Source of the DNA: a virus
Reading direction: 5' to 3' (one strand)
DNA length: 50,252 bases
Virus record (IMG/VR): IMGVR_UViG_3300036719_000885
Span: 1-50,252 of that record
The position numbers were made by a program, and so were the translations under genes. This document shows, one piece after another, positions 23,466-39,608 of this stretch (its first letter is position 1; every line of letters begins with the position of its first letter). Under the pieces are notes generated by a model. The model saw nothing but the letters and a program-made list of their open reading frames with translations, was not told the DNA's origin and did not search any database.

Positions 23466-26400
23466 ATGCCAAACCCACGCGCCCAGAAGAATCCGACGTT
23501 CATCCCCCAGGCCCTGCAAGGCCTAGCCGACATGGGCCGCGGTGCGGTACGAGGCGCCCTGGCAGAAGGCTTGGGTACGGCAGGCGACATCACCCAGGCG
23601 CTAAGCAACATCAAGACGGCAGGCTTCATGCCAGCCATGCTTGCAAGGGGCCTACAAGGGCCTACAAGCGAAGAAATGAGCCACGCCTTACGAGGCATGA
23701 CCCCAAACCCTTTAACGCAGCCTGACCGCGCTCACACGGCCCAGATGGGCCAGACCTTCGGGTCGGTCCCTGCATCGATGGCCGGAGGGGCTGGGACCAA
23801 TGCTGCACTGCAAAAGATGGCAGGCAGGCTAAACAACATGCAGAAGGTCGAGTCCATGATGCCCAAGGCGCCCAAGCCGGTAGCCGAGGTGCTTAAGGGG
23901 CCCGAGCCCGACTTCATGCGCGTCTACTCTGGCCAGCGTATCCCGATCGAGGGCAAGTTCGACATCATGAGGGCAGATCCCCACGCCTCGATGGGCCGCG
24001 CATTTTACACGGCAGAGCTTCCCCGGTACGCCAACAAGTTCACCGGCAATCAGCCTGGAGCTAACGTCACGCCTGTCGACGTTGATCGCAACCGGATGCT
24101 GATGTTCGACAAGATGTACGACACGCCCCAGGGCCAAATGGAAGGCCTTGACTACTACGACATGCTGCGCAGGCAGGCCATGGTCAAGCCTGGGATCGGA
24201 AAGGATATGATCCGCCAAGAGATCCTCGACGCTGGCTTTGCCGGTACTCAAATGCCCAACGCAACGGGCAAGGCTTATGCAATCTACGACCCGAGCGTGG
24301 CTCAGGACATGTCTGGTCGCGGTTTCGCACGCGGCGGTCTGGTAGACGGATCGAGCAATGACGACGCAACTGGAGGTCAGGGCTGGAGGGCGGCTCCCGG
24401 CATGGCTGCTGGCGGAGTTCCCTATAAAGGTCTTAATCCCATGGCGACAGGCCTGGGCCAAATGAGACAGCAGTCCGTAGCAAGGGATGCAGCTTCGAAC
24501 CTGATGGCCCAAAACCGAGCCGCTCAGTTTGCCAACCAAGACGCGCTCCGCCTGCAACGGCAAAACCAGTTGGCAGCCGCTAAGACCGCACGCCTGAATG
24601 CCCTGGCACCCAAGCTGTCGACCTACGTCCCGCCTGCGGGATCTACGACGACCAGTCCGACGGTTACCAGCCCAACGATTACCAGCCCAGCAACCATCAC
24701 GGCAGACTCAACGACGCCGATCGTACCTACAGCTAAGCCGGACGATCCGGGTAATTACCAGGGCGGTGCTCGAGGCGGCCTCGTAAGCATGGCAGGCGGC
24801 GGTTTGGCCAAGAAGGCCGCCGAGAAGGCTTTTAGGGCTCTTCCTGGTCAGAGCTTCCAGGGCAAGACTGGCTTGAACATGGAAATGCCCAAGGACGTCG
24901 AGAAGAGAATTCTGGAGGTCACCGAGTCCGGTCTCATCCTGCCGTCCGAAGCTTTAGGCAAGCACGAAGGCAAGACACTGATGATCACCCAGGCCGATAG
25001 AACTAAAGTCGGAGAGGGCTTTCTTGGTGGTCCGGGATTCTCAGGTATTCAGCTTACCGATCCGCGTTATGCCGGTGCGACCTGGGGCGTTAAGACGCCT
25101 GGAGTGGGGCAGACCATCATAGGGTCCAATCGCCGCGTGCCTGAAGGCCAAGCGATCTGGACGACCATGCTTGGAACGCCGACGCAGCACAAGTCGAACC
25201 AGATGGTATTCGACCGCCTCTACAAGGAGTTTATGGGCGGCGTTAAGCAAGAAAAGCTCACGCCCGAACTCAAGGACACCCTGAACGCAAAGCTTGCCTC
25301 GGTGGTCGATAAGGAGGGCAAGAACCTATTCCCGGCCGACGTCGACATTACGAACCCCAGGAAGTTCCGCAAGCTTGTCGACACCTTCGACAAACGCGCA
25401 GCCGCTGCTGACGTCATGGGCGGTATCGGCGTTGGCGGTAAGAAAGGTCAGATCTTCGATTACGATCGGATCATTCAGCGCACGACAGATCCGGCGCTCT
25501 TGGAAGTGCCGACAGGTTCGCTTGGCAACCGCCTCTTCCAGCTTAGCGGCGAGATGATGGACAGGCCCGACCTTCACCCGGCCTTCCCGACCATCCTCAA
25601 AGGCGAGGATCTTGGCGTCAGCTTCATGCCTGCGCCACGAGAACTGCTAATGGAGGACTACATTAACAAGGTCCTTACCGAGAAGGGTCGTCAGCCTGGG
25701 TACATGGACTGGACTCGAGGCTATGCGCCTTCCCAGTTCCTATCCGAAGAGCTACTAACCAAGCTTCAGAAGGCTGGCTACAAGAAGGGCGGCAAGATCA
25801 AGAAGATGCAGGCAGGCGGCAAGGCCATAGTAAGCGGTCTCCAGGCCCTTGCTAAGCCTGCCAAGCAGACCATCACGTCGGCCATCGACCCCACTATGGA
25901 CATCGCAAGCAGGCTGTCCCAGCCCGATCGCGTCAACCTCCTGCCGATGCCTAGCCGGTGGTTCCTTGACCCCAAGAACAACCCGAACGTGCAAAAGCTT
26001 GTCGAGAAGGTTCTCGAGGTCAACAACATGAAGCGCTCGGACTTTTACTCGGGCGCCTTCGTGAACCCGCGTACCGGCGAGGTCATGGACAAGAAGGTCA
26101 TGCAGGACGTCGGTGTACTGATCAACCCGAATACCGGCAGGCCCATGATGAGCGCCGAGAAGGAAACAGACCTCACCATTGGCGACCGCAAGAAGGGCTC
26201 GATCACCAAGTCAAACCTCGTGCGCAAACAGCTTTACGAGACCGAAGGCGATCCAATCCTCAAGGACCTGGACTTCCTCGTGGCCATCGAGCAATCGGGC
26301 ATGGGACACAAGTACGGGCTGGCCACTGAGTACGCCACGCCTGCCGAAATGTTCAATACCATGACGGGCGACAACCCAACCCTTAGGCCGAAGAGCCAGG

Positions 26401-26564
26401 GCGATGTCTTCGGGATCGGCGACATCGTTGGGCGCATGTCCATGAAGTCGAGCAAGATGCCCCACGACGTTTACGAATCCTTACTAATCGCGCCCAAAGG
26501 CTCCGACGTCCAGGGCGTCAAGCTGAGCAAGAAGAAGGGCGGCATAGTGAAAGGGCGCAAATGA
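23466..26564 (+). CDS. Large polyvalent protein with ART-like domain
   Basis: A 1032-residue, multi-segment protein. After an Ala/Gly-rich N-terminus, residues 153-278 resemble an ADP-ribosyltransferase-type domain of the kind found in polyvalent phage proteins: VYSGQRIPIEGKFD, GRAFYTAELPRYANKF, ANVTPVDVDRN, EILDAGFAGT and AYAIYDPS. A Thr/Pro/Ser repeat (about 390-422) and two further globular regions of unknown type follow. Segments are separated by Gly-Gly motifs: FARGGLV (about 288), ARGGLVSMAGGG (about 436) and YKKGGKIKKMQAGG (about 772); the C-terminus has KKKGGIVKGRK. Like other such proteins it may travel in the capsid and act on host targets. The catalytic assignment needs structural support. 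Confidence 0.75.
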   Translation: MPNPRAQKNPTFIPQALQGLADMGRGAVRGALAEGLGTAGDITQALSNIKTAGFMPAMLARGLQGPTSEEMSHALRGMTPNPLTQPDRAHTAQMGQTFGSVPASMAGGAGTNAALQKMAGRLNNMQKVESMMPKAPKPVAEVLKGPEPDFMRVYSGQRIPIEGKFDIMRADPHASMGRAFYTAELPRYANKFTGNQPGANVTPVDVDRNRMLMFDKMYDTPQGQMEGLDYYDMLRRQAMVKPGIGKDMIRQEILDAGFAGTQMPNATGKAYAIYDPSVAQDMSGRGFARGGLVDGSSNDDATGGQGWRAAPGMAAGGVPYKGLNPMATGLGQMRQQSVARDAASNLMAQNRAAQFANQDALRLQRQNQLAAAKTARLNALAPKLSTYVPPAGSTTTSPTVTSPTITSPATITADSTTPIVPTAKPDDPGNYQGGARGGLVSMAGGGLAKKAAEKAFRALPGQSFQGKTGLNMEMPKDVEKRILEVTESGLILPSEALGKHEGKTLMITQADRTKVGEGFLGGPGFSGIQLTDPRYAGATWGVKTPGVGQTIIGSNRRVPEGQAIWTTMLGTPTQHKSNQMVFDRLYKEFMGGVKQEKLTPELKDTLNAKLASVVDKEGKNLFPADVDITNPRKFRKLVDTFDKRAAAADVMGGIGVGGKKGQIFDYDRIIQRTTDPALLEVPTGSLGNRLFQLSGEMMDRPDLHPAFPTILKGEDLGVSFMPAPRELLMEDYINKVLTEKGRQPGYMDWTRGYAPSQFLSEELLTKLQKAGYKKGGKIKKMQAGGKAIVSGLQALAKPAKQTITSAIDPTMDIASRLSQPDRVNLLPMPSRWFLDPKNNPNVQKLVEKVLEVNNMKRSDFYSGAFVNPRTGEVMDKKVMQDVGVLINPNTGRPMMSAEKETDLTIGDRKKGSITKSNLVRKQLYETEGDPILKDLDFLVAIEQSGMGHKYGLATEYATPAEMFNTMTGDNPTLRPKSQGDVFGIGDIVGRMSMKSSKMPHDVYESLLIAPKGSDVQGVKLSKKKGGIVKGRK

Positions 26565-29500
26565 AACCGATCAACCCGTTCACTGCCAACCTGCCCAAGA
26601 AGGCCGCGAAGAAGTCCAAGGGTGAACCTATTCGCATGCAGGGCGGCGGTGACGTAACCGATAAGCCTTTGCTTGCTGACGAAGCAATTGATCAAATGGC
26701 GCGTTACAACTCAAGGGATAGCGGATCGCCTTTAAGCCAATTCAACGAAGACTTAACAATCCTCCCTGAAGAGGACACTTGGAATTTATTAAAGGGTCTG
26801 GATCGCATTTACACACCAAAAATCGGCGAGTACATCGCCGATGTCCAGTCGCCAGCAGAATTGCTTGGTCGCATCAAGGATCTTGATCCTGAATATGTTG
26901 ACGCCTTGACAAGCGGTCTTTCGGAGTTGGTTAGTCAAACGCAGCCTTCAGGACCTAACAGCTTTGACTCAGTGCCTAAGTACCACGGTTCGGACCCATT
27001 AGATAAGCTTAATCGCCAAGAGATTGACGAAGCTGCGTGGCAGGTTTATGAGAACCCTGCGCTGGCCTCAACCTTTGTGAATGTGCTGCAAAACCCGCTG
27101 GCTTATACGATGACCGAATCGGCCGTTGATCAGCCAAGAGATATAAAAGCAGAGGTATGGAATGAGGAATTCCCAAAATGGAAAGAGGATTTATTAGGCG
27201 CTCCCGCTGACATTCAGCCTTTTTCGCAGCTAACAAGCAACGCGGCTGTAACAGGTGCAAACCCACTTGATTACACCCCGGGTTTAAGTGATAAAGGGCT
27301 TGGCGCAGGCTTTGCAGACCCTGGCGTCGTTGAAATGATTGACCGCTTTGATCGTAATCAAGTAGCGGCCACGCCCGAGTTAGCAGCGCTTGATCAGTCG
27401 ATCGCTTCGCAGGAAAGCAACGCTCTAAACCAAGGGCTTGCTAGGCTGATGTCTGTCGATCAAATCACCGGCGACATCGATCCAGTCCAATCGCTACGCA
27501 ACTTGCAGGCTTACGATCCTGCTTCTTTTGAAGCAACCCTTAGCACGTTGCAGGATGTTCCCAGCCTTGTACCTCAATCGGGGCTCGGCTCCCTACGGCT
27601 TGGTATGGAGCAGTTACAAGGCCTGGAGGGGGTAACGCCTGCGCAAGTCGGCGAAACCGCCAATGCTTTCGCATCCATTCTGAAGCAGCCTGAGATTGGT
27701 GGCCAAGTTCAGGACATCGCCCAGAATATTCGGAACATCACCGAAAACCAGGAGCCCGTGCAGCCCGTACAGGAAGACGAAGATCTTGGTGGCGGTTATA
27801 CGAGTCTCACGCCTCTTGTCCGGTCTAATTTCTTCGACAAGGGCCAGCAAGAGTATCGCAAGGGTGGATTGGTTCGTATGAGCAATGGTGGCGACCCCAC
27901 CCAGATGTTCAACTTCAATCCCATGGCCGCCAAGGCTGCCAAGCAAAAGCAGATGCGCGACTCCACGCCTGAGACACCACTCGGTGCGCTTAGCCGCGGC
28001 TTTGCTACGGGCTTGTTTGGTAGCACTGAAGAGCAGGTGCCTTACACCGGCAGCATCATGGAAGGTTCGCCACAGCGCCAGCAATCGCAGGCAAACCTGC
28101 GCGAGATTGGCCGCAATGTCGGCGCACTGACAGACATCGGCGGCATGGTTACGCCATTCGTTAAGCCTGCAACCCAAGCCATTACACGCGGTGCCACAGC
28201 ACTGGGCAGGACAGGCCTCGAGCAAGTCGATCGCGCCATGTTTGGCGAAGGCCCGCTTGGCAACGCTCTGAGCATGTTAGCGCCACTGAACGTCAACGCA
28301 CCTGTCAGCAAGCTTGGCTTTTACAACCCGATCGAAGAGATGGCCACCGCCTTGCAGCGCAAGCAAGGGCCAGGGCAGGCCTTCCTCAATGAGTTCACCA
28401 AGGCAGGTATCAGCAAGCAGCGCCTCGAGGATGCGGGCCTAGCTCAAAAGCTTGCTGCCGCGCCCAACGTCACGCGTGAGGAAGTTCAGGCTATGACCAA
28501 GGGCACGATGCCCGACGTCGAAGAGGTGGTCCTGAGCAGGTCTGTCATACCGCCCTACATGAAAGGGTTTGCCAACCTGCATATGCCCAACCTCGATGTC
28601 AACGATTACAGGCAGATTAATCAGTTGCGCAAGATTGCCGATGAGCGTTATAAGAAAGCTCTTGCGGAGAACGACCTCGATGCCGCCGAGTTTGCGATGA
28701 AGGCCGAAGAGGACATCAACAAGTTCAGCCGGACTCACAGCTATGGCACCAAGCCTGGGGAGCGGCTGACCGAATTTCACGATTACCAAGAACCTGGGGG
28801 CAAGAACTACCGCGAGATCCTGCTTAAAGTACCGGTTAAAAGGGTCAGCGAGGAAGAGGCGCGGGTAATCTTAAATTCTCAACCTGAAGATAAGTTAACC
28901 GATTACGACATTGAATTTGCCTCGCGTAAGGCAAATCCTGCGTTTCGATCGCCGCACTGGTCAGATCCAAACGTCATTTCTCATATCAGGATGAATGACC
29001 GTGTGGACGCTGAAGGCAAGAACGTGCTTTTCATTGAGGAGCTTCAGTCTGACTGGGCGCAAAAGGGCCGGTCTGGATTTAAGGGGCCCGAAGTCGATAA
29101 TCAATATGAAAAGCTGTCCGCAGAGATGAGCGACATACTTGATAAACAGATAGCAATGGAGGGGGGTAATGCTCCATGGTCTGATAGTGAATACGGCGCA
29201 CTGGTTGAAAAGTTGCAAGAAATTCGTGAAAAGATGATCGCTGTTAAAGATGTGCAGCGAAATGGTCCGCCGCCAGGGCCATTCGTTAAGAACACCAACG
29301 AGTGGGTTGACCTGTCCCTGAAGAACATCATCAAGCGTGCAGTCGATGAGGGCTACGACCGCGTTGCGTTCATTGACGGCCACAAGTCTTTCTTGCGCTT
29401 TCCTCAAGGTGCCGATGGCGAGTCCACCGAGGCAGGAATGCGCAAGTTCTATGACGAGATCATCCCTGGCAGGCTCAAGGCTCTGGTTGGCAAGGACAAT

Positions 29501-30736
29501 GTCCGGACTATCCCAGGCATTACGCAACAACGGCCGCTTGATGTTTCGCTACAAGGCGATCGGTACTATGTGGTCGATGCTGATACCGACATTGCGATAC
29601 CAGATCATCCTGGATTCCGAAGCCTCGAAAGGGCCGAGCAATACCTTGACGAGTTGTACAGCAAGTCAAAGTCCATGGACCAGATCGGGTTCGACATCAC
29701 CCCCGAGATCCGTGAGAAATTTAGCCAGCCCATCCCGTATAAACATGGAGGGGTGGTGAAAATGGCGGCAGGCGGTGCAAAGAAGCTCAAGCGTGCGGCC
29801 GAGGCTATCGCCAAGTTTCAAGACCCCCAGGCCACCAAGATCCAGGAGTGGCAGTGGAGGCCCCTGGCCGAGGTTAACAAGCAGCTTAATCTTGCCGAGG
29901 TTCCGGATTACATCCAGCGTGGGTACGGAGACTTTATGATTGAGCAGGGCAAGCGGGCCGCTGCCGGTAACCTCGGAGTCCGGGACCTGATTAAGGCCTA
30001 CGGTATTACGCAGTCGAGCATTGGCCGCGGCGGTCTATCCCATGACACGGCAACCAAGGCAGGCTTGAAGGTACCGAAGACCGAAGGGCTGGTAAGGCCG
30101 GAGGGCGCCTTCGCTGAATGGCTGGGCTCCAAGCAGGGGCAGAAGTTCCTCGACGACGCCGAGAAGGGCGTGGTCAACGAGAAAGCCCTGGACGACATTC
30201 GGGCCAAGTTCGCACCCTTCGGCAAAGCCAACCAGCTTACCGAGCAGCTTCGGTATGGCGTCAACAACATGTCGACCCTGGTCCCGCAAATGCAGCAGGC
30301 GCTTGTCGGATCGGCTGATGAGTACCGCGACTGGGCCGAAAGCATTAAGGGCATAGCAGGCGCTAAAAGCGGCTTTATAGGCTCGATGCTGGGTCGTGGA
30401 GACTTACCTACCCTGGACGCAAGACAGCTTAACCTGCACTCCCTGGAGAGCCCTGTAGCCCCCCAGACGATGATGCAAAGGGGTAAGGGGCTGGGCGCTC
30501 GTGAGGCGGTCGATCGCTTGGCGGCTAGGCAGTCTGCACTTGGCCTTGATATTGATCCATCGCTTGACCCGTATTACCAGCACCTAGCGCACCACGCGGT
30601 CTGGGATAAAGTAGCCGACGAGAAGACGACCCACGAAGATCTTATGAGGGCGTTGCGTGGCTACAAAGAGGGCGGAGAGCCCGATACCGACGCTATGCGT
30701 CTTGAAATGATGAGGAAATCATGGCGATCGAAATGA
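26561..30736 (+). CDS. Very large polyvalent protein
   Basis: A 1391-residue protein with an ATGA overlap start. The N-terminal 400 residues are Gln/Asp-rich and mostly helical. EYRKGGLVRMSNGGD (about 431) marks a border. Residues about 799-940 contain HWSDPNVISHIRMNDR, VLFIEELQSDWAQKGR and a final AVDEGYDRVAFIDG, which I recognise from large polyvalent or N4-like phage proteins, where the domain is uncharacterised. PYKHGGVVKMAAGG (about 1059) marks another border before a helical C-terminal region ending YKEGGEPD. The 3' end overlaps the portal gene by 16 bases. Capsid packaging with the portal is inferred from position. Confidence 0.75.
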   Translation: MKPINPFTANLPKKAAKKSKGEPIRMQGGGDVTDKPLLADEAIDQMARYNSRDSGSPLSQFNEDLTILPEEDTWNLLKGLDRIYTPKIGEYIADVQSPAELLGRIKDLDPEYVDALTSGLSELVSQTQPSGPNSFDSVPKYHGSDPLDKLNRQEIDEAAWQVYENPALASTFVNVLQNPLAYTMTESAVDQPRDIKAEVWNEEFPKWKEDLLGAPADIQPFSQLTSNAAVTGANPLDYTPGLSDKGLGAGFADPGVVEMIDRFDRNQVAATPELAALDQSIASQESNALNQGLARLMSVDQITGDIDPVQSLRNLQAYDPASFEATLSTLQDVPSLVPQSGLGSLRLGMEQLQGLEGVTPAQVGETANAFASILKQPEIGGQVQDIAQNIRNITENQEPVQPVQEDEDLGGGYTSLTPLVRSNFFDKGQQEYRKGGLVRMSNGGDPTQMFNFNPMAAKAAKQKQMRDSTPETPLGALSRGFATGLFGSTEEQVPYTGSIMEGSPQRQQSQANLREIGRNVGALTDIGGMVTPFVKPATQAITRGATALGRTGLEQVDRAMFGEGPLGNALSMLAPLNVNAPVSKLGFYNPIEEMATALQRKQGPGQAFLNEFTKAGISKQRLEDAGLAQKLAAAPNVTREEVQAMTKGTMPDVEEVVLSRSVIPPYMKGFANLHMPNLDVNDYRQINQLRKIADERYKKALAENDLDAAEFAMKAEEDINKFSRTHSYGTKPGERLTEFHDYQEPGGKNYREILLKVPVKRVSEEEARVILNSQPEDKLTDYDIEFASRKANPAFRSPHWSDPNVISHIRMNDRVDAEGKNVLFIEELQSDWAQKGRSGFKGPEVDNQYEKLSAEMSDILDKQIAMEGGNAPWSDSEYGALVEKLQEIREKMIAVKDVQRNGPPPGPFVKNTNEWVDLSLKNIIKRAVDEGYDRVAFIDGHKSFLRFPQGADGESTEAGMRKFYDEIIPGRLKALVGKDNVRTIPGITQQRPLDVSLQGDRYYVVDADTDIAIPDHPGFRSLERAEQYLDELYSKSKSMDQIGFDITPEIREKFSQPIPYKHGGVVKMAAGGAKKLKRAAEAIAKFQDPQATKIQEWQWRPLAEVNKQLNLAEVPDYIQRGYGDFMIEQGKRAAAGNLGVRDLIKAYGITQSSIGRGGLSHDTATKAGLKVPKTEGLVRPEGAFAEWLGSKQGQKFLDDAEKGVVNEKALDDIRAKFAPFGKANQLTEQLRYGVNNMSTLVPQMQQALVGSADEYRDWAESIKGIAGAKSGFIGSMLGRGDLPTLDARQLNLHSLESPVAPQTMMQRGKGLGAREAVDRLAARQSALGLDIDPSLDPYYQHLAHHAVWDKVADEKTTHEDLMRALRGYKEGGEPDTDAMRLEMMRKSWRSK

Positions 30737-33204
30737 ATCTACCCCTTGAGGAAAGCCCCGAGGGCGACGAGACGATCTACAAGCTATTTGACGAGAAGCC
30801 CGACGTCGAAGAACTCGAGGACGGGTCGGCTGTTGTCCGCATGACCGAGAACGACGGGCCCGAAGAAGATCCGCAGTTCTATGAAAACCTTGCAGCCAAG
30901 ATCGATCCAAACACCCTGGACGACCTCGCTCTGAAGTACCTCGAGCTATTCGAGAAAGACATGGAGGCTCGTAAGGAGCGCGATAAGCAGTACGAGGAAG
31001 GCTTAAAGCGGTCAGGTCTTGGTAATGAGGCTCCAGGCGGTGCAACCTTCCAGGGCGCATCCAAGGCTGTACACCCAGTAATTGCCGAAGCCTGCGTGGA
31101 TTTTGCCAGCCGGTGCATGAAAGAGATCATGCCGCCTGATGGCCCTGTAGGCACAAAAATCCTTGGCGATGTTACCGAGCAAAAGCAGGATGTTGCCGAG
31201 CGTAAGCGCGACTTCATGAACTGGCAGTGTACCGAGCAGATCGAAGAGCTTCGCGATGAACTCGAGCAGCTTGCTACTCAGCTACCACTCGGTGGCAGCC
31301 AGTACCTGAAACTTTGGTATGACGAGCAAAAGAAGCGCCCCTGCGCCGAGTTCGTGCCTATCGATAAGATCCTGCTGCCCTTCTCCGCGCCAAGCTTTTA
31401 CACCGCCCAGCGTTGTACCGAAATGCAGGACATATCCGAGGAGGAGTTCAACCGCCGGATCGCTGCAAACCTTTACCTGGACGTTACCTATACCCGCGCC
31501 AGTATGGAGCCCGAGCCAACGGCCGCGCAAAAGGCTAACGAGAAAATCGAGGGCAAGAAGTCGACCAGCGAGAACATCGACGGTGAGCGCCGCGTCTTCC
31601 ATTCCTACGTCAACCTCACGATCGATGATGACGAAAAGTCGAATGGCGACCTTGCTCCTTACATCCTGATGATCGACGAGCAGTCCCGGCAGGTGGTCGG
31701 CCTTTACCGTAACTGGGAAGAGGGCGACGAGCAGATGCAAAAGCTCGACTGGCTCATCGAGTTCAAATTTATCCCTTGGCGCGGTGCTTATGCGATCGGT
31801 TTGCCCCAGTTGATTGGAGGCTTGTCTGCGGCCCTTACAGGGGCCCTGAGAGCCCTTTTAGACTCTGCCCATATCAATAACTCACCGACCATGCTCAAGC
31901 TCAAGGGAGCCCGTATAACAGGCCAGAGCGTGCAGGTTGAGCCGACCCAGGTTGCCGAGATCGAGGGAGCCCCAGGCGTTGACGATATTAAGAAGATCGC
32001 CATGCCCTTCCCCTTCAATCCGCCGTCGCCCGTGCTCTTCGAGTTGCTGGGCTGGATTACCAACGCGGCCAAGGGCGTCGTAACAACGAGCGAAGAGAAG
32101 ATCGCTGACATATCCAACAACGCACCGGTTGGAACCACCCAGGCTTTGATCGAGCAGGGCGCCGCGGTTTACTCCAGCATTCACATGAGACTGCACAAGT
32201 CCATGCGCAAGATGCTGATGGTCCTTGGCAGGATCAATCGCTGGTGGCTCGAGGATATGCGCAAGGGCGATATGGTCGAGGACCTCGTCATTGGCCGCCA
32301 GGACTTTGACCGCAACACCGACATCGTCCCCGTCTCTGATCCGCATATCTTCAGCGAGACCCAACGCTTTGCCCAAAACCAAGCCCTGGCTGCACTCGCT
32401 AAGGACAATCCCGACTTATTTGATCGCCGGGAGGTCATGAAGCGGATCTTGAAGCAGATGAAGGTGCCCGAGATCAATCAGGTCCTGCCGGATGTCCGCG
32501 AAGTCAAGGAGATGAACCCTGCGCTCGAGAACGTGGCCATGTCCCTTGGGCAGCCGGTCGCAGCCTTCCCGAACCAGGACCATATCGCGCACTTGCAGAC
32601 GCACTTGGCCTACGCTATGGACCCTGTCTACGGCATGAACCCAATCATCGGACAGAAGTTCGTACCGGCCATGCTTGAACACGCCAAGCAGCACTTAACG
32701 CTCTGGTACCTCAAACGGATGAGCGAGTACATCAACGCCACCGAGGTCAAGGACATGGATACCCTGAAGGTCACGCCGATCTTCGAGGAGGCCCAGCAAC
32801 TCATGTCCGCGGTTGCAAGGCACGTCCATATCGACTCGGCCGAGACCTTCGAGCCGATGATGCCGATCCTCCAGCAGCTTATGCAGATCGCGCAGCAAAT
32901 GCAGCCCAAGCCACCGGTACCGCCGGAGGTCGAGGCCCTTGTTCAGACTTCGGTGGCAGAGACCCAGCGCCGAGCCCAAAAGGATCAGGGCGAACTCATG
33001 CTGAAGAAGGAAAAGCAAGATACCGACGTGGCGCAAAACGCCCAGAAGATCCAGGCCGACATCGCAATGAACGTCGAGGATAACCTTACCCGCCAGCAGA
33101 TCGAGGCGGCAAAAATTGCCGGTGAGAACGCAGCACTCACCCAAGAGCAAGAGCGCACCGCTATGGCCGCGCAAGAGGCTGCACAACGAACCTTTGGAGT
33201 TTGA
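30721..33204 (+). CDS. Portal protein
   Basis: An 827-residue protein, a size typical of P22-type portals. The acidic N-terminus is followed by the conserved body: FQGASKAVHPVIAEACVDFA, QLPLGGSQYLKLWYDE, VGLYRNW, FKFIPWRGAYAIGLPQLIGG and the crown-like helical C-terminal part, very Gln/Ala-rich from about residue 720. The dodecameric portal ring sits at one capsid vertex and is the channel for DNA and the seat for adaptor proteins. Gene order before scaffold and capsid fits. Confidence 0.9.
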   Translation: MAIEMNLPLEESPEGDETIYKLFDEKPDVEELEDGSAVVRMTENDGPEEDPQFYENLAAKIDPNTLDDLALKYLELFEKDMEARKERDKQYEEGLKRSGLGNEAPGGATFQGASKAVHPVIAEACVDFASRCMKEIMPPDGPVGTKILGDVTEQKQDVAERKRDFMNWQCTEQIEELRDELEQLATQLPLGGSQYLKLWYDEQKKRPCAEFVPIDKILLPFSAPSFYTAQRCTEMQDISEEEFNRRIAANLYLDVTYTRASMEPEPTAAQKANEKIEGKKSTSENIDGERRVFHSYVNLTIDDDEKSNGDLAPYILMIDEQSRQVVGLYRNWEEGDEQMQKLDWLIEFKFIPWRGAYAIGLPQLIGGLSAALTGALRALLDSAHINNSPTMLKLKGARITGQSVQVEPTQVAEIEGAPGVDDIKKIAMPFPFNPPSPVLFELLGWITNAAKGVVTTSEEKIADISNNAPVGTTQALIEQGAAVYSSIHMRLHKSMRKMLMVLGRINRWWLEDMRKGDMVEDLVIGRQDFDRNTDIVPVSDPHIFSETQRFAQNQALAALAKDNPDLFDRREVMKRILKQMKVPEINQVLPDVREVKEMNPALENVAMSLGQPVAAFPNQDHIAHLQTHLAYAMDPVYGMNPIIGQKFVPAMLEHAKQHLTLWYLKRMSEYINATEVKDMDTLKVTPIFEEAQQLMSAVARHVHIDSAETFEPMMPILQQLMQIAQQMQPKPPVPPEVEALVQTSVAETQRRAQKDQGELMLKKEKQDTDVAQNAQKIQADIAMNVEDNLTRQQIEAAKIAGENAALTQEQERTAMAAQEAAQRTFGV

Positions 33205-33206
33205 AA

Positions 33207-33362
33207 ATGAGCGAAGCAATCAACATGCACAAGCGTCTTGCCATGGGCGAAAAGCTGACCGGCCAAAAGCTTAAGAACGGCGGCCGTCCTATGCCCAACA
33301 AGAAAAAGGATGAGTCGCCCAACCTGCGCCCCTACGAGAAGGAAGCACTTAAGCGCAAATGA
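33207..33362 (+). CDS. 51-residue basic protein with KNGG motif
   Basis: ATG three bases after the portal stop; it ends in an ATGA overlap. The peptide (MSEAINMHKRLAMGEKLTGQ, then KLKNGGRPMPNKKKDESP) is strongly basic and contains the recurring K-x-G-G motif seen in other late proteins. Its function is unknown, perhaps a capsid-associated or scaffold partner. Confidence 0.6.
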   Translation: MSEAINMHKRLAMGEKLTGQKLKNGGRPMPNKKKDESPNLRPYEKEALKRK

Positions 33363-33541
33363 ACGACTTTTCTCAGCTTATCGGGATCATCAAGGGGTTG
33401 CAGGCTGATATTGCAACCTCCTTGGCGAACGGTAATGCCAACAGTTACGAGGTGTATCAGCGCCTCGTAGGTGAATACCGAGGGCTTGAACAAGCTCTGA
33501 AGGCTATCGACCAACTTTTAACGGAGGATCAGTATGACTAA
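33359..33541 (+). CDS. 60-residue helical protein
   Basis: ATGA overlap start. A small acidic helical protein (FSQLIGIIKGLQADIATSLA, then VYQRLVGEYRGLEQALKAID) that could form a coiled coil. Late-gene position between portal and co-chaperonin. Function is unknown. Confidence 0.65.
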   Translation: MNDFSQLIGIIKGLQADIATSLANGNANSYEVYQRLVGEYRGLEQALKAIDQLLTEDQYD

Positions 33542-33950
33542 CGCTTCGAATGAAGCGGCGATTCGGGAAGCATTTCCTGAAGTTCACCCAGGTGCAGCAC
33601 CCTTAGGCGCTCGATTGCTCGTTCAGATCAAGTCGCCCAAGAAGAAAACGACGTCTTCGGGCATCGTTTTGGTCGAAGAGACCAAAGAGGTTGAGAAGTG
33701 GAACAGCCAAGTGGCCAAGGTTATTGCTATCGGCCCCCTTGCTTTCCGTAAACGCGACTCGATGGACCCATGGCCGGAAGGCTCATGGTGCGAAATCGGC
33801 GAATTCGTCCGCGTTCCCAAGTGGGGCGGGGATCGATGGGAGGTTGCGGTACCCGGAAGCGATGAAAAGGCGCTGTTTTGCATCTTCAACGACCACGAGA
33901 TCATCGCCAAGGTCACGATGGACCCCTTGACGATGCACATTTACATCTAG
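33534..33950 (+). CDS. GroES-like co-chaperonin
   Basis: A 138-residue protein with the GroES/Cpn10 pattern: PLGARLLVQIKSPKKKTTSS-GIVLVEE near the N-terminus (strand, flexible loop, strand), then VAKVIAIGPLAF, IGEFVRVPKWGGDRWEV and CIFNDHEIIAKVT at the end, like the GroES ILRESDILAV region. It is longer than GroES (about 97) by an N-terminal and middle extension. Phage co-chaperonins such as T4 gp31 adapt host GroEL to fold the capsid protein. Its place between portal and capsid genes fits that job. Confidence 0.75.
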   Translation: MTNASNEAAIREAFPEVHPGAAPLGARLLVQIKSPKKKTTSSGIVLVEETKEVEKWNSQVAKVIAIGPLAFRKRDSMDPWPEGSWCEIGEFVRVPKWGGDRWEVAVPGSDEKALFCIFNDHEIIAKVTMDPLTMHIYI

Positions 33951-33966
33951 GTTTTGGGAGAAAACC

Positions 33967-34950
33967 GTGAATGCAAGCGACAAGCTAGAAATGCAGCTTA
34001 ACGTTCAGGAGGCAAACGATGGCTCGGCCATTGTTGAACTGCCCGATAGCGTTGAGCCCATCGATCAGACCCCTCCGGAGCCGGATATTTCGGTCCATAA
34101 CGGGTTTGTTAACAACAACGAAGACGATGACATCGACCCTTCGGACCCCGATCGCGAGGCAATTCGAGCCGCAAGGCGCGAAGAGCGCAAGCTTAAGCGG
34201 CAATTGGGTAAAGAAGAGAAGCGCCACAACTATCACCTGATCTCCTCGCTCAAAAAGCAGAATCAGGAGCTTGCCGAACGCCTTGCAAGCCTCGAAAAGC
34301 GCACCTCTGGGGCAGAAATGGCCCGAGTGGACAAGGCTATTGAGGACGCTGACGTTCGGTTGCGCTGGACGCAGATGAAATTGAAGGAAGCAGTCGAGTC
34401 AGGCGACGGTGATGGGGTGGTAAACGCCCAGGAAGCCATGTACGAGGCCAAGCGGCAGGTCGAAGCGCTGCAAAACCTCAAGCATCAGGCCTCCAGGCAG
34501 ATCGAGACCTCGGGAATTAAGCCCCCGGACCCCGATATGCAGCGCCTAGCGTCCGATTGGATGTCCAAAAACCGGTGGTACGACCCCAAGGGCCGCGATA
34601 CCGATTCCAAAGTAGCACTTCAGATCGATAAAGCCATGGCCGAAGAGGGATACGACCCATCAACCGAAGAGTATTGGGACGAGCTTGATGAACGCTTGTC
34701 AAAGTACCTTCCTCATCGTTACAATCAAGGCAAGAGCAATAGTCGTCCGAGACCACGCTCTGTTGTAACGGGTTCCGAGCGGTCCAGTTCGAGCACCTCA
34801 GGTAGTAGCAACGAGTTTTTACTCTCACCCCAGCGGGTGGCTGCGATCAAGGAGGCTGGAATGTGGGACAACAAGGAACAACGCATGAAGATGATCAAAC
34901 GCTTCATGGATTTCGACCGTGAACAACAAAGGAGTGGAAATGGACGATAG
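33967..34950 (+). CDS. Capsid scaffolding protein
   Basis: A 327-residue, highly charged protein. It starts at GTG after GGGAG. An acidic N-terminus (NEDDDIDPSDPDRE) is followed by a long coiled coil (about 60-190; KQNQELAERLASLEKRTSGA) and a Ser/Arg-rich tail ending in a basic helix (MKMIKRFMDFDREQQRS). This composition and position directly before the capsid genes are typical of internal scaffolds, which drive procapsid assembly and then leave. Confidence 0.75.
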   Translation: MNASDKLEMQLNVQEANDGSAIVELPDSVEPIDQTPPEPDISVHNGFVNNNEDDDIDPSDPDREAIRAARREERKLKRQLGKEEKRHNYHLISSLKKQNQELAERLASLEKRTSGAEMARVDKAIEDADVRLRWTQMKLKEAVESGDGDGVVNAQEAMYEAKRQVEALQNLKHQASRQIETSGIKPPDPDMQRLASDWMSKNRWYDPKGRDTDSKVALQIDKAMAEEGYDPSTEEYWDELDERLSKYLPHRYNQGKSNSRPRPRSVVTGSERSSSSTSGSSNEFLLSPQRVAAIKEAGMWDNKEQRMKMIKRFMDFDREQQRSGNGR

Positions 34951-35476
34951 GCTTAGAAAGAATTCTGACGCTGGCCGACGCACTCGGGCTTCCGAGGATC
35001 GACAGCGTGACGCACCTGAGGCAGGTTTTGCCTTTGCGGAGGAACGTCGCAAGATGTTCCGGTCGGAGTGGCTACAGGAGGCTCTCCCGACACCGCCGGA
35101 GATTCCCGGCTTCCACCTTTGTTGGCTATCGACTACCAATTCGTATGATCCGATTCACAAGCGGATGCGCCTGGGCTACGAGCCTGTTAAAGCTGATGAT
35201 CTTCCCGGCTTTGAGCATCTAAAAGTGAAAGCAGGCGAGTTTGCAGGGTTTGTAGCATGTAACGAAATGATCTTGTTCAAGCTTCCAATGGACATTTATC
35301 AGGACTACATGACGCAGGCTCACTTCGAGGCGCCCCTGGAAGAGCAGGAGAAGATCCGGGTGCAAGTCGAGCAGTTGCAAGGCGCACGCGACTCAAACGG
35401 CAGACGGCTTGGGATGGTTGAGGGCGACGGGATGAATTTTGACCAACCCACTCGACCCCCGGTATTCCAGGGTTGA
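34940..35476 (+). CDS. Hypothetical late protein
   Basis: A 178-residue protein; the ATG at 34940 follows AAAGGAG. The N-terminal 50 residues are basic and disordered. The middle (LPTPPEIPGFHLCWLSTTNS, YDPIHKRMRLGYEPVKADDL, LPMDIYQDYM) is compact and aromatic. It lies between scaffold and capsid genes and may be a head-assembly or head-completion protein; no family is named with confidence. Confidence 0.75.
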   Translation: MDDRLRKNSDAGRRTRASEDRQRDAPEAGFAFAEERRKMFRSEWLQEALPTPPEIPGFHLCWLSTTNSYDPIHKRMRLGYEPVKADDLPGFEHLKVKAGEFAGFVACNEMILFKLPMDIYQDYMTQAHFEAPLEEQEKIRVQVEQLQGARDSNGRRLGMVEGDGMNFDQPTRPPVFQG

Positions 35477-35495
35477 GACCTCAGGAGTCTTTAAC

Positions 35496-36092
35496 ATGAG
35501 TGCTACCTCTGCTGCCTTCGGCATGCGGCCTGCGTTCCACCCGTCCGGGTTGGACCGTGCGCAAGCAATTGCCAATGGCATTACGTCGGGCTACGCGACG
35601 AACATTCTTAAGGGTCAGCCTGTCAAGATCGACGTCAGCACCGGCGCTATCGTTGTTGCCGCTGCTGGTGACGCTTTTGTGGGCTGTTTCGCAGGCGTGG
35701 AATTCACCGACACCACGGGTCGTCGGCGCGTTTCCAACTACTGGCCTGCTTCCACCTCGGCCACCGAGATCGTTGCGTATTTCTACAGCGATCCCGCCAT
35801 CGTTTATGAGATCCAGACCAACGCCACCATCGCACAAACCGCGATCGGCCAGGAATACGATCTTGCATCGACGACCGCCGGAAGCACGACCACAGGTCTT
35901 TCTGCTTGCATGCTGAGCACCTCGGCTGCCGCAGCTAACGCCTCCGCCCAAATGCGCGTGATCGACATTGCGCCTTACCCCGACAATGCTTGGGGCGATA
36001 CCTATGTCATCGTGCGTGCCCAGATTGCCGAGCATCAGTTCGGTGCCATCTACACGGGTTCGGCGAAGGCCTACCCCGTAACCATCGCTTAA
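35496..36092 (+). CDS. Head decoration or capsid-associated protein
   Basis: A 198-residue protein; the ATG follows CAGGAG. It is almost entirely beta with Ala/Thr-rich strands (ILKGQPVKIDVSTGAIVVAA, YFYSDPAIVYEIQTNATIAQ) and Gly turns. Directly upstream of the major capsid gene, it is likely a decoration or cement protein. Phage decoration proteins with a similar beta-rich layout are common. The precise family is not certain. Confidence 0.75.
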   Translation: MSATSAAFGMRPAFHPSGLDRAQAIANGITSGYATNILKGQPVKIDVSTGAIVVAAAGDAFVGCFAGVEFTDTTGRRRVSNYWPASTSATEIVAYFYSDPAIVYEIQTNATIAQTAIGQEYDLASTTAGSTTTGLSACMLSTSAAAANASAQMRVIDIAPYPDNAWGDTYVIVRAQIAEHQFGAIYTGSAKAYPVTIA

Positions 36093-36105
36093 GGAGGGCT
36101 AGATC

Positions 36106-37020
36106 ATGGCAGCCCCGATGCGCAGTACCGACTTTCGGTCGATTGTCGAACCGATCCTTAACGAATCGTTCGACGGCATTTACGACCAGAGAGCCGATGA
36201 ATGGTCTACCGTTTTCCGTGAGCAAAACGGTATCCCCCGTAACTACCACGAAGAGCCGGTCCTTTATGGTTTCGGCGCAGCCCCTGAAATGCCTGACGGC
36301 ACTCCCGTCACATATCAGCAGGGCGGCGTGCTCTTCCTCAAGCGCTATGTGTACAAGGTCTATGGTTTGGCCTTCGCACTGACCAAAGTGCTCGTGGAAG
36401 ACGGCGACCATATCCGGATTGGTCAGGTCTATGCTAAGCACCTCGCACAGTCTCTCGTCGAGACCAAGGAGACCTTGGCAGCCAACGTGCTCAACCGTGC
36501 CTTTACCGCAGGCTATAACGGTGGCGACGGCGTTCCTTTGAACTCCGCCTCTCACCCAATCGTCTCGGGCACCTTCAGCAACCTGCTTACGACCGCTGCG
36601 AACCTTTCGCAAACGTCGCTCGAGCAGATGCTCATCCAGATCCGTCAGGCTGTTGACAACAACGGCAAGAAGATCCGTTTGAACCCGCTGAAGTTGGTTG
36701 TTGCTCCTGGCAACACCTTCCAGGCTGAAGTTCTGCTTAAGAGCGTTCTGCGTGCTGGTACCGCGAACAACGACATCAACCCGATCAAATCGATTGGCTT
36801 GCTGTCCGAGGGCGCTTCGGTTATCAGCCGTTTGACCTCGCCTACCGCATGGTGGGTGCAGACCGACGCACCGGAAGGCATGAAGCTGATGATGCGCCGT
36901 GCCCTTGAAAAGACCATGGAAGGTGATTTCGAAACCGACTCCATGCGTTACAAGGCCACCGAGCGTTACGACATCGGCTGGACCGACCCGCGTGCCATGT
37001 ACGGTACTCCTGGCGTCTAA
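36106..37020 (+). CDS. Major capsid protein
   Basis: A 304-residue protein. Features of HK97-fold capsid proteins include an N-terminal helical arm (RSIVEPILNESFDGIYDQRA), FLKRYVYKVYGLAFALTKVL, EDGDHIRIGQVYAKHLAQSL, KLVVAPGNTFQAEVLLKSVL and a C-terminal YDIGWTDPRAMYGTPGV. Upstream are the scaffold and decoration genes. A downstream hairpin may raise its mRNA stability, as expected for the most abundant protein. Confidence 0.9.
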   Translation: MAAPMRSTDFRSIVEPILNESFDGIYDQRADEWSTVFREQNGIPRNYHEEPVLYGFGAAPEMPDGTPVTYQQGGVLFLKRYVYKVYGLAFALTKVLVEDGDHIRIGQVYAKHLAQSLVETKETLAANVLNRAFTAGYNGGDGVPLNSASHPIVSGTFSNLLTTAANLSQTSLEQMLIQIRQAVDNNGKKIRLNPLKLVVAPGNTFQAEVLLKSVLRAGTANNDINPIKSIGLLSEGASVISRLTSPTAWWVQTDAPEGMKLMMRRALEKTMEGDFETDSMRYKATERYDIGWTDPRAMYGTPGV

Positions 37021-37026
37021 ACCGGC

Positions 37027-37057
37027 GAGGGGCTTCGGCCCCTCTCCTCATAGGAGA
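37027..37057 (+). other. TTCG hairpin and overlapping RBS hairpin
   Basis: GAGGGGC-TTCG-GCCCCTC (37027-37044) overlaps a second dyad, TCTCCT-CAT-AGGAGA (37043-37057), whose right arm is the Shine-Dalgarno of the next gene at 37063. The two stems compete for two bases. This could separate capsid from decoration expression. Confidence 0.6.
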
Positions 37058-37062
37058 GAAAA

Positions 37063-37455
37063 ATGGCGTACAACAACAATGTGACTAATGCAGCAGGCGT
37101 ACTGTCGGCGATCACCGCAACGATCGCTTATACGGACACCGCCGCGGTCACCATTGGCACGCTCCCCGCAGGCGCTCAGATCGTTGATGTCAACATCGAC
37201 GTGACGACTGCTTTCAATGCCGGTACGACCAACACGGTCACGGTAGGCAAGACGGGGTCGGCTGCGGCGTTTGTTGCTGCTACTTCGGTTGGCTCTGCTG
37301 GACGCGCTTCGGTCGCTACGACCGGCGTATACAGTGCCTGGGCTAACGTGGGTACCAGCGATATTGACTATGCAACCGTAACCTTCAGCCAGACCGGCAC
37401 AGCAGCAAGTGCAGGCGCTGCCCGTGTGACGATTGTCTACAAGTCGTTCGCATAA
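37063..37455 (+). CDS. Beta-rich head or minor virion protein
   Basis: A 130-residue protein of alternating strands (VLSAITATIAYTDTAAVTIG, ASVATTGVYSAWANVGTSDI) with Ala/Thr/Val bias, like small phage decoration or tail-knob proteins. The RBS lies in a hairpin. A structural role is inferred from composition and position. Confidence 0.7.
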   Translation: MAYNNNVTNAAGVLSAITATIAYTDTAAVTIGTLPAGAQIVDVNIDVTTAFNAGTTNTVTVGKTGSAAAFVAATSVGSAGRASVATTGVYSAWANVGTSDIDYATVTFSQTGTAASAGAARVTIVYKSFA

Positions 37456-37465
37456 GGAGCGGATC

Positions 37466-38041
37466 ATGGGTCAGTTCAAGCCGATGGTGAAAATGATGAC
37501 CACCGAGCCTTCAGTGGAGTTGAAGCTGAAGAAGGGTGGTCATGTGCAACGTAAAGCGATGGGCGGGATGCCCGACGCTATGGGTATGCCTGCGGCTGCA
37601 AAGCCTTCAGAGCGTGGTATCCCCATGGCAGCACGTCGTGGTATCGCTCCCAAGATGACCGTGCCTAAAGGCGGTATGCGCGGTCCAATGATGCGCAAGA
37701 AGGGCGGCGAGGTTGAGTCCAAGTCGATGCACAAGGCCGAAATGGCCGAGATGAAAGGCATCAAAAAGGAACTCAAGTCCCACGAGGACAAGCCTGCTTC
37801 CAAGGCGCATAAAGGCCTTAAATCGGGTGGTGTTGCAGCCTATGCAACCGGCGGCGTTATTGAGAAGTATGCGACCGGTGGCGTTATCCAAAAGTTCAAG
37901 AAGGGCGGACTTCAGGACGACGGCAAGGCAGTGAAGTACCCGAAGGTGCCTGCTACCAAACCTCCGTACATTACGAAGCTTGCCGACACCCACAAAAAGG
38001 GCGGTCGGATTGCTAAGAAGGCCTACGGCGGCGCGTGCTGA
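37466..38041 (+). CDS. Lys/Gly-rich protein with repeated GG motifs
   Basis: A 191-residue, very basic protein; the ATG follows GGAGCGG. It contains many copies of a short motif: LKKGGHVQ, MRKKGGEVE, LKSGGVAAYATGGVIEKYAT, GGVIQKFKKGG and HKKGGRIAKKAYGGAC. No globular domain is obvious. The same K-x-G-G-x-V/I motif punctuates the polyvalent proteins. It may bind DNA, be packaged in the head, or act as a scaffold-like linker. The function is unknown. Confidence 0.75.
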   Translation: MGQFKPMVKMMTTEPSVELKLKKGGHVQRKAMGGMPDAMGMPAAAKPSERGIPMAARRGIAPKMTVPKGGMRGPMMRKKGGEVESKSMHKAEMAEMKGIKKELKSHEDKPASKAHKGLKSGGVAAYATGGVIEKYATGGVIQKFKKGGLQDDGKAVKYPKVPATKPPYITKLADTHKKGGRIAKKAYGGAC

Positions 38042-38047
38042 AACGGT

Positions 38048-38063
38048 GGGGGCTAAGGCCCCC
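38048..38063 (+). other. GGGGGC-TAAG-GCCCCC hairpin
   Basis: A 6-bp GC stem with a TAAG loop just after the Lys/Gly-rich gene. No T-run follows, so it may protect or process the mRNA rather than stop transcription. Confidence 0.6.
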
Positions 38064-38083
38064 GCTTACTTTAAGGACTTGCA

Positions 38084-38386
38084 ATGAAAGTTCAATCCGT
38101 TTCAAAGACAGGAGTAGGCTCAAGCAGCGCTCTGGTCATGAATACCAACATCAGCCCTTTTAATGTCGGGTTTGGTGTCGTTGTAACTGGGACGGTCAAC
38201 TATACCGTTCAGCACACCTTCGACGATCCCGCTGTGGGATTCTCGACTTGGTTCTCGCATCCCACAGTAGCTTCGCTGGCAGCCAATGCCGATGGCAACT
38301 ATGCCTTCCCGGTAACCGGCATCAAGGTCCTGGTGAACTCGGGATCGGGTACCGCAACGCTTAATCTCATCCAAGCAGGTATCTGA
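38084..38386 (+). CDS. Small beta-rich virion protein
   Basis: A 100-residue protein of Ser/Val/Gly strands (NVGFGVVVTGTVNYTVQHTF, FPVTGIKVLVNSGSGTATLN). It resembles small phage structural or fibre-associated proteins. No specific family is recognised. Its stop overlaps the next start. Confidence 0.7.
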   Translation: MKVQSVSKTGVGSSSALVMNTNISPFNVGFGVVVTGTVNYTVQHTFDDPAVGFSTWFSHPTVASLAANADGNYAFPVTGIKVLVNSGSGTATLNLIQAGI

Positions 38387-38625
38387 TGGGCATCGTCGGC
38401 TACACCGGCGTTGCTGATCAAGCCAATACGTCCGATGGGTTTGCTCGTGGCGTAGGGGCTCAAAACGTCATTGGCGGCACGGATTGGGGCCTGGACGTTG
38501 GCGATAACGGTGTGGTCGATATGTATGGTGCGGCACCAACAACCACCTTCTACATTCTTGATGAGACAGACCCAGGTTATGTTCTTCAGGAAGACAACAG
38601 CAAGATCGTATTGGAGGCCTCGTAA
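38386..38625 (+). CDS. Small virion protein of unknown function
   Basis: A 79-residue, acidic, Gly-rich protein (GVGAQNVIGGTDWGLDVGDN, FYILDETDPGYVLQEDNSKI). It overlaps both neighbours by one base. A structural role is inferred from location only. Confidence 0.65.
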   Translation: MGIVGYTGVADQANTSDGFARGVGAQNVIGGTDWGLDVGDNGVVDMYGAAPTTTFYILDETDPGYVLQEDNSKIVLEAS

Positions 38626-39209
38626 TGGCTGATCAAAAGATTTCCGCGATGCCTACCGCCGCTACCCTGACGGGTGCGGAGCTTATCCCCATGGTCCAAA
38701 GCGGTGCGAACGTAAAAGCTACGCTTGACACCATTAGGGCTTATGACGCCTCTTACGGCGCTTTTAGCAGCAGCCTTGATCAGACTGGAAGCATTAGCGC
38801 TGGGACGGTCATGACTTTCAATTCAGTCGATGTTGCGGACGGTGTTACGGTGGTGAGCAATAGCCGTATTACCGTGCCAAAGACCGGGATTTATAACCTC
38901 CAGTTCAGTGCTCAATTCAAAAACGTCGAGAACACGCAAGAAGACGTTACGATCTGGTTCCGCGTAAACGGTTCCGACCTTGCGAATTCTGCAACCCAGG
39001 TAACGATCCCGGCGAGGAAGTCGGCTAGTATTTTTGGGTATGGGGTTGCAGCCTGGAATATTTTCCTATCGCTTACCGCGGCTCAGTATGCGGAAATCGT
39101 ATGGCTTCCAACGGTCGCAACCTTGACGATGGAGCACTTGCCTGCCAGCCTATCACCGGCTTACCCCGCGATTCCTTCCGTTATCGCTACCATGAATCAG
39201 GTGGCCTAA
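38625..39209 (+). CDS. Head or tail fibre protein with C1q/TNF-like region
   Basis: A 194-residue protein. The N-terminal KISAMPTAATLTGAELIPMV is an attachment-type motif also seen in the 40998 fibre (LRISELPSAGPITGTELVPI). The C-terminal region (RITVPKTGIYNLQFSAQFKN, VTIWFRVNGSDL, NIFLSLTAAQYAEIVW) has the jelly-roll pattern of C1q/TNF-like trimeric heads. It is probably a short fibre. Confidence 0.75.
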   Translation: MADQKISAMPTAATLTGAELIPMVQSGANVKATLDTIRAYDASYGAFSSSLDQTGSISAGTVMTFNSVDVADGVTVVSNSRITVPKTGIYNLQFSAQFKNVENTQEDVTIWFRVNGSDLANSATQVTIPARKSASIFGYGVAAWNIFLSLTAAQYAEIVWLPTVATLTMEHLPASLSPAYPAIPSVIATMNQVA

Positions 39210-39608
39210 ATGCCTGCCAAGTCTAAGGAGCAGTTCCGCCTGATGCAGGCGGTGGCCCATAACCCATCGTTCGCTAAGAAGGTCGGTATCAAGCCGAGCG
39301 TAGGGTCTGAGTACACCAAATCCAACGTCGGGGGAAAGTCCTATGCAAAACTTCCTGAACGCCTTAAAGAGGGTGGCCCGAGCCTTGCGGTTGGCCGTGG
39401 CGAGAAGCTTCCGGTCTCTCAAGGCGCGGGTCTTACCGCCAAGGGTAGAGCGAAATACAACCGAGAAACAGGATCAAACCTGAAGGCTCCACAGCCCGAA
39501 GGAGGCGCTAGAAAGCGCTCCTTTTGCGCCAGGATGCAAGGGGTAGTGGATAATGCCAAGGGACCCGCTGAACGCGCCAAAGCGTCCCTACGGCGCTGGA
39601 AATGCTAA
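39210..39608 (+). CDS. Small basic protein (KSKEQFRLMQAV, DUF6321-like end)
   Basis: A 132-residue protein. The N-terminus KSKEQFRLMQAVAHNPSFAK then VGSEYTKSN resembles small viral DNA-associated proteins. The middle holds LKEGGPSLAVG, and the C-terminus RSFCARMQGV ... RAKASLRRWKC matches the DUF6321-like ending seen in many phages. It may be a minor capsid protein. It carries one K-x-GG motif. Confidence 0.7.
   Translation: MPAKSKEQFRLMQAVAHNPSFAKKVGIKPSVGSEYTKSNVGGKSYAKLPERLKEGGPSLAVGRGEKLPVSQGAGLTAKGRAKYNRETGSNLKAPQPEGGARKRSFCARMQGVVDNAKGPAERAKASLRRWKC

Follow-up and report, generated by a model that had tools for sequence, protein, structure and literature searches.

Background

Phages T4 and P1 carry short conserved targeting tags on injected proteins that are otherwise diverse (PMC3012670, PMC9024508). 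The closest parallels to the case described here are the capsid targeting sequence of the T4 internal proteins and Alt and the N-terminal packaging signal of P1 DarB; both are brief conserved stretches found on late proteins destined for the head (PMC3012670, PMC5694885, PMC9024508). Polyvalent proteins, known from phages and conjugative elements, are large late gene products that combine several modules of disparate activity and whose genes accompany those for the virion (Iyer et al. 2017, PMC5512222). Here we analyse a short Gly-Gly motif in late proteins of the IMG/VR virus record IMGVR_UViG_3300036719_000885, whose full 50,252 bases are referred to as the window. The motif opens with an aromatic residue or Met and two positions that are mostly basic or small; Gly-Gly, a variable position and Val or Ile follow, and it is frequently extended by Lys-Met and a second Gly-Gly. 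Its bearers in the window are two polyvalent proteins and a 191-residue repeat protein.

The motif and its bearers in the window

The original prediction was that K/R-x-GG-x-[VIL] recurs across unrelated late proteins. Among the 32 late plus-strand proteins, this pattern has seven copies (within-protein shuffled mean 1.35, maximum 6 in 1000 shuffles) and the tighter form [KRH]GGx[VILM] has nine (1.77 shuffled). Both forms are confined to the proteins starting at 23466, 26561 and 37466, so that both polyvalent proteins are bearers, as predicted; the remaining 29 late proteins have no copy of either, with 0.69 and 0.94 expected, and the recurrence does not extend to them. When GG was shuffled as a unit, the excess of the tighter form weakened (P 0.005, 0.09 and 0.016 for 23466, 26561 and 37466), so the window by itself is suggestive and the decision rests on its relatives. 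The refined motif [F/Y/M]-[K/A/R/E]-x-G-G-x-[V/I] has six copies in the window, and the reversed motif none (shuffled mean 0.23, maximum 2 in 300). The motif is real, but narrower than first formulated. The bearers and their copies are as follows.

23466..26564, plus strand: polyvalent protein 1 (1032 aa), a main bearer, encoded after the large terminase and before polyvalent protein 2 (from the open reading frame, motif counts and relatives of its modules)
24324..24344, plus strand: FARGGLV, residues 287-293 of polyvalent protein 1, motif copy
24768..24803, plus strand: ARGGLVSMAGGG, residues 435-446, motif copy
25779..25820, plus strand: YKKGGKIKKMQAGG, residues 772-785, motif copy directly after the module at residues 494-768
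26529..26561, plus strand: KKKGGIVKGRK, residues 1022-1032, C-terminal copy
26561..30736, plus strand: polyvalent protein 2 (1391 aa), a main bearer, directly upstream of the portal gene (from the open reading frame and relatives)
26630..26650, plus strand: IRMQGGG, residues 24-30 of polyvalent protein 2, resembling by eye the second half of the motif minus one residue
27854..27892, plus strand: YRKGGLVRMSNGG, residues 432-444, motif copy
29738..29776, plus strand: YKHGGVVKMAAGG, residues 1060-1072, motif copy at the end of a putative GNAT-like module
30662..30676, plus strand: YKEGG, residues 1368-1372, motif-like, at the end of the C-terminal module, with no V/I after it
37466..38041, plus strand: Lys/Gly-rich motif-repeat protein (191 aa), second gene past the major capsid gene, ending in GGAC
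37526..37546, plus strand: LKKGGHV, motif copy in the 191-residue protein
37694..37714, plus strand: RKKGGEV, motif copy
37841..37912, plus strand: tandem YATGGVIEK YATGGVIQK FKKGGL, with a nine-residue period
37991..38011, plus strand: HKKGGRI, motif copy near the C-terminus

The 191-residue protein had been credited with more than six copies; it has six [KR].?GG sites plus two YATGGVI, of which only three match K/R-x-GG-x-V/I/L.

Occurrence in related viruses

Loci were sampled as the nearer relatives of the window (L001-L132), 120 loci selected by the DNA pattern of the extended motif (L141-L260), 80 capsid-gene-selected loci chosen regardless of the motif, loci L346-L459 and eight phage records. 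The search of related phages that the original prediction had proposed showed the motif to be widespread, and strongly biased towards viruses. The DNA pattern of KKGGx[VI]xKMxxGG was found in at least 120 IMG/VR stretches, whereas the reversed amino-acid order gave two in all. In 84,980 prokaryote genomes, the extended motif had three matches, one being a typical bearer in an uncultured-bacterium bin and two looking like chance.

In the 3491 distinct called proteins of L001-L132 and L141-L260, loci that were partly chosen by the motif itself, [KR]GGx[VI]x[KR][MFYL]xxGG has 138 copies, against 0 of the reversed form and a shuffled mean of 0.1; in the 1751 L141-L260 proteins without the search motif, it has 9 against 0 reversed. 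Positions left free by the search are also constrained: the residue preceding KKGG is M, Y, L or F in 111 of 120 extended copies, and the residue following V/I is K in 96. The same order appears in 79 proteins fetched solely by a second, C-terminal tag (described below) and without selection on the KGG motif. Among their 224 GG pairs, 135 have Phe, Tyr or Met three places ahead of the first Gly (enrichment over background 9.4x for F, 7.6x for Y and 4.1x for M), and V two residues past GG is enriched 5.9x. In 1221 proteins of the capsid-selected loci, the refined motif has 77 copies and its reversal 3; in 414 proteins of the eight phage records, the counts are 25 and 1. The half motif [VI]x[KR][MFYL]xxGG discriminates less well (242 copies, 44 of the reversed form) and lies within the first ~16 residues of 7 of the 3491 proteins, with 0 in the control. 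Between copies, identity at the wobble position of Gly codons is 0.436, scarcely above the 0.412 expected from base use, which indicates a protein feature and not a DNA element.

The fixed residue order bears on a first alternative, a Lys-Gly nucleic-acid-binding repeat whose copies bind and neutralise packaged DNA with no specific protein partner. The bearers are basic, with a median net charge of +0.124 per residue, which DNA binding fits equally well, and lysines of T4 internal proteins have been seen touching DNA phosphates (PMC3012670). However, charge alone needs no fixed order of aromatic/Met, Gly-Gly and Val, nor does it call for the preference for K over R directly before GG (86 to 13, compared with 1722 to 629 overall in the same proteins), and we regard this explanation as unlikely.

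Across the window and L001-L140, [KR]GGx[VILM] is present in 33 of 872 protein clusters and is dominated by two, the 191-residue family (53 of 54 members) and a polyvalent cluster (46 of 67). Among 50,697 phage records searched with tblastn, the 191-residue protein matched one record over 27 residues and polyvalent protein 2 matched four. No match was returned for second-tag bearers queried as two sets of four, nor for the C-terminal portion of a further bearer. The BLAST low-complexity filter may hide matches, because Pag-Yong1 (L137; Planktothrix phage Pag-Yong1 / Synechococcus phage MinM2) does have both tags: one of its proteins, encoded a few genes past the capsid gene, has YAKGGAV and the end RDGCAKRGRTKGRFI. 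The records OQ594354.1, OL906435.1 and PP438419.1, each of 65,014 bases and deposited under different cyanobacterial hosts, gave identical matches to one protein and are possibly one genome under several names. No description of the motif or the second tag was found in the open-access literature, a search limited to openly licensed papers, so prior publication is possible; the name 'Pag-Yong1' was not found in the openly licensed PMC papers searched.

Diversity of bearers and a second C-terminal tag

The late proteins that share the motif, including those of one phage, are otherwise unlike. After motif masking, 95 called bearers fell into 39 clusters (largest 37, singletons 30), counts that rest on short, low-complexity proteins with much of their sequence lost to masking; 30 of the 120 pattern-selected loci had no called motif gene (short or edge open reading frames) and are absent from the clustering. 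Counting bearers of either tag, there are up to five per locus, and 57 of 158 adjoin another bearer.

The second tag, GxAx[R/K/Q]G within the last 25 residues, is present in 139 of 1903 L141-L260 proteins (reversed 1), and in IMG/VR its pattern gave at least 120 matches against 3 reversed. It takes the forms DGxAx[R/K]GKTKG-x-x-x-end and RGxGAAxKG...RGPMA (also RGxGAAxKGxxARGPMA). The 134 distinct second-tag proteins form 76 clusters when the tags are masked and are spread over 70 of the 120 pattern-selected loci; exactly 7 or 8 residues follow the tag in 105 of them, and 81 have a KGG core. In an independently fetched sample, a KGG core lies within the 60 upstream residues in 74 of 126 proteins with the second tag at the C-terminus (reversed 5), compared with 97 of 1490 other proteins (reversed 44).

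Across L141-L260 and L346-L459, the second tag marks the C-termini of dozens of otherwise unlike small late proteins. In L141-L260, a C-terminal Cys is commoner in bearers (32 of 115) than in other proteins (80 of 1681), and by cluster the figures are 8 of 57 and 20 of 530; such ends are exemplified by GGAC and GGKAC, with the window codons at 38036-38038 and 39603-39605.

Position at module borders and C-termini

The original prediction placed the copies at domain borders and C-termini, and this is borne out. Of 99 extended copies, 62 end at most 40 residues from the C-terminus, and internal copies are found in polyvalent proteins. Borders were analysed in proteins of at least 500 residues with two or more copies (29 proteins; one wrong-frame open reading frame of L137 was dropped, and the other 28 were reduced to 18 non-redundant ones). 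In these, a homology block ends within 12 residues of an internal motif copy in 29 of 34 cases. The corresponding figures are 62 of 153 for the remaining GG pairs and 1514 of 5400 for positions drawn at random. Proteins of the 23466 and 26561 types contain several modules per polypeptide, which recombine between phages. For four different modules, the end is followed by a KxGG site, in 7 of 8, 4 of 4, 13 of 16 and 5 of 5 of the relatives examined. For the module at residues 494-768 of polyvalent protein 1, the site lies 5-6 residues past the module end in seven of the eight relatives, and the eighth aligns partly. For the module with 16 relatives, two of the three without a site have alignments that stopped early and one does not; among the 13 with a site, that of L139 is unlike the motif and that of L066 lies 22 residues farther on. 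In polyvalent protein 2, matches to many relatives start at the YRKGGLVRMSNGG copy, and in several relatives the sequence switches right past the YKHGGVVKMAAGG copy.

These borders would also be expected of a neutral linker, that is, a Gly-rich joint tolerated between modules and spread by recombination and repeat slippage with no binding function. The switching of homology right past the motif agrees with it, as does the length of the motif-repeat protein, which is 191 residues here and ranges from 340 to 628 in eight capsid-selected loci whose N-termini remain alike (a comparison covering 36 of the 42 nearest loci; seven had no capsid gene called, and loci with fewer than 1500 bases after the capsid gene were skipped). 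Yet other GG pairs of the same proteins are far less often at borders, the residues are retained while synonymous positions are free to vary, and the KxGG site persists beside modules just 39-50% identical. We consider a neutral linker quite improbable.

Border copies likewise invite polyprotein cleavage, another of the readings first offered, in which a protease of the phage or its host would cleave at Gly-Gly or close to it, freeing the polyvalent modules and trimming the tails of small proteins. In P1, DdrB undergoes processing ahead of packaging, and DarA is cut and goes into the head (PMC5512222). In other loci, a head maturation protease family had matches among the neighbours of bearers, 4 of 130 for the near set and 5 of 130 for the far one. 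Against this, a Pfam scan of 27 window proteins revealed no peptidase domain, and copies also lie a few residues from C-termini (six residues from the end of the 23466 protein) or in tandem in proteins of 45-63 residues, places at which a cut would set free nothing obvious. Cleavage is less likely than a head-packaging tag and, in our estimate, very unlikely.

The AlphaFold2 model of residues 110-1032 of polyvalent protein 1 has a pLDDT of 34 and was unusable. For residues 425-1391 of polyvalent protein 2 (pLDDT 56.8), the first copy sits in a stretch with pLDDT of about 25, and the second starts where a folded domain ends and confidence drops. The model weakly suggests a GNAT-like fold for residues of about 584-1061: comparison by VIA returned mostly GNAT folds, with Z up to 10.6, plus some long-helix matches, while Foldseek returned nothing below E 0.001 (best E 0.14). 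At E 0.1, sequence searches linked neither polyvalent protein to a solved structure.

Genomic context

Bearers belong to the head-gene module. In the window, the late block runs from the large terminase (22024) through the polyvalent genes (23466 and 26561), a portal-like gene (30721), GroES (33534) and a gene at 33991, whose product is a putative scaffold-like protein, to the capsid gene (36106), past which lie genes for a 130-residue protein, the Lys/Gly-rich protein at 37466 and tail proteins. In L001-L132, 56 bearers are encoded two genes past the capsid gene and seven three genes past it; another 20 lie 7-9 genes ahead of it, with the polyvalent ones between terminase and portal. Bearers of either tag in L141-L260 are mostly 2-15 genes past the capsid gene, ahead of the tail adaptor. 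For the neighbours of bearers, a scan covering 130 of 270 near and 130 of 349 far proteins gave PHROG matches of the virion structural, head, tail, terminase and head-protease kinds. The other genes that the text refers to are these.

36106..37020, plus strand: major capsid protein gene (PF25209 and PF10124 matches)
33207..33362, plus strand: 51-aa protein; its KNGG is not the motif and is not generally conserved
39210..39608, plus strand: 132-aa protein with an N-terminal SKxQ-type domain (our own label) and a C-terminal DUF6321; not a bearer

The last two had been counted as bearers, and this did not hold up. The string KLKNGGRPM is present in the 33207 product without matching the pattern, and six of nine distinct orthologues have some [KRH].?GG, mostly at other sites. 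LKEGGPSL in the 39210 protein does not match either; its KxGG is part of another conserved block, ahead of SLAVGRGEKLP, in a DUF6321 protein. KAMGGLMKM exists, though outside 23466-39608: it is a spacing variant of the motif at residue 582 of the first left-edge protein (72-2135). Four large proteins are encoded at this edge (72-6199), the last a transglycosylase (SLT), and they may be ejection proteins.

The 39210 protein matches DUF6321 and phrog_16759, 22033 and 25121; true bearers of L244 and L150 match the three PHROGs, and those of L254 and L255 are similar by eye. Both phrog_22033 and phrog_25121 are labelled virion structural protein. The window's own member of this group is without the motif. 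The SKxQ-type N-terminal domain also opens several true bearers elsewhere; queried via the L244 bearer, this domain (window 39210-39320) matched 104 phage records and is also found in phiKZ gp165.1. A GroES-like co-chaperonin (PF00166; 33534-33950) lies among the head genes and is annotated also in eight phage records.

Proposed function

Of the three readings in the original prediction, which also named cleavage after Gly-Gly and membrane binding, a head-packaging tag is the best supported, though unproven; virus bias, head-gene context, unlike families and end position all agree with it. We tentatively propose a short linear docking tag, through which cargo would be recruited to the head as it assembles. 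The fixed residue order, the position at ends and borders, the strong virus bias and the many unlike bearers lead us to this reading, which we hold to be plausible.

Several observations weigh against it. The full extended motif is absent from the 80 capsid-selected loci, where the simple core [KR]GGx[VIL] discriminates less well, with 84 copies against 21 of the reversed form, and none of the 2137 proteins of L001-L132, the nearer relatives, has the second tag. Of the 120 pattern-selected loci, 107 share one or more window-type late genes, so the spread of the tag may reflect one large lineage. In the 28 kb examined of Caulobacter phage RW (62 kb), there are only single scattered matches. The 191-residue motif-repeat family is accessory: proteins with two or more cores occur in 15 of the 80 capsid-selected loci, many of which are short, namely 12 of the 42 (some truncated) with a capsid protein at least 67% identical and 3 of the 38 others. 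Genes six or more away from bearers match the same kinds of PHROG families as close neighbours, which shows a late module and not a special neighbourhood. The basic charge of the bearers and the low complexity of the clustered proteins, both noted above, belong here too.

If the motif is a docking tag, a common partner present in head assembly would bind it, and the tag would exist because of that binding. Polyvalent proteins could have arisen by fusion of modules, each bringing its own tag, which would account for about one tag per module. The small Lys/Gly-rich proteins encoded downstream of the capsid gene, with several tags, may be a hub for the others, or cargo themselves. Tagged proteins would be taken into the procapsid and then leave with the DNA; presence of the bearers in the particle, a single binding partner, uptake and ejection are all inferred. 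A broader and more speculative version is possible, in which a whole uncultured-phage lineage shares an aromatic-x-x-Gly-Gly-x-Val zip code on module ends, plus, in many members, the C-terminal GxAxRG tag, both read by a head-assembly partner. Any gene gaining a tag would then become virion cargo, and polyvalent proteins would grow by stringing tagged modules together. If so, this would be a cargo-loading code that is C-terminal and internal, and a second solution to the problem solved in T4 by capsid targeting sequences. The probable virion cargo of many uncultured phages could be listed from sequence alone, including tiny family-less genes, and the tag might offer a simple handle for loading proteins into the heads of laboratory phages that are harmless.

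Comparison with known systems

A double-glycine leader peptide was considered and rejected, since such a leader is N-terminal and ends in GG, and the copies in the three window bearers are internal or C-terminal. The two large window proteins resemble the polyvalent proteins of PMC5512222 in combining several modules and in being encoded late, among the virion genes; in relatives too, their genes lie between terminase and portal. Unlike those, neither reaches the Pfam cut-off, and polyvalent protein 1 has no Pfam or PHROG family at E 0.1. The words 'glycine', 'linker', 'lysine' and 'short motif' do not occur in the main text of PMC5512222.

The likeness to the T4 capsid targeting sequence lies in the set of bearers, which is otherwise diverse in T4 and here. 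The T4 sequence is N-terminal, 10-20 residues long and removed by the prohead protease, and the P1 DarB signal is N-terminal and 30 residues long. The tag described here, likened to them by description and not by sequence alignment, is instead C-terminal, internal between modules or repeated, and most extended copies lie towards the C-terminus. Short targeting tags on diverse internal proteins are thus already a known kind, and the tag found here is comparable to, but different from, that of T4.

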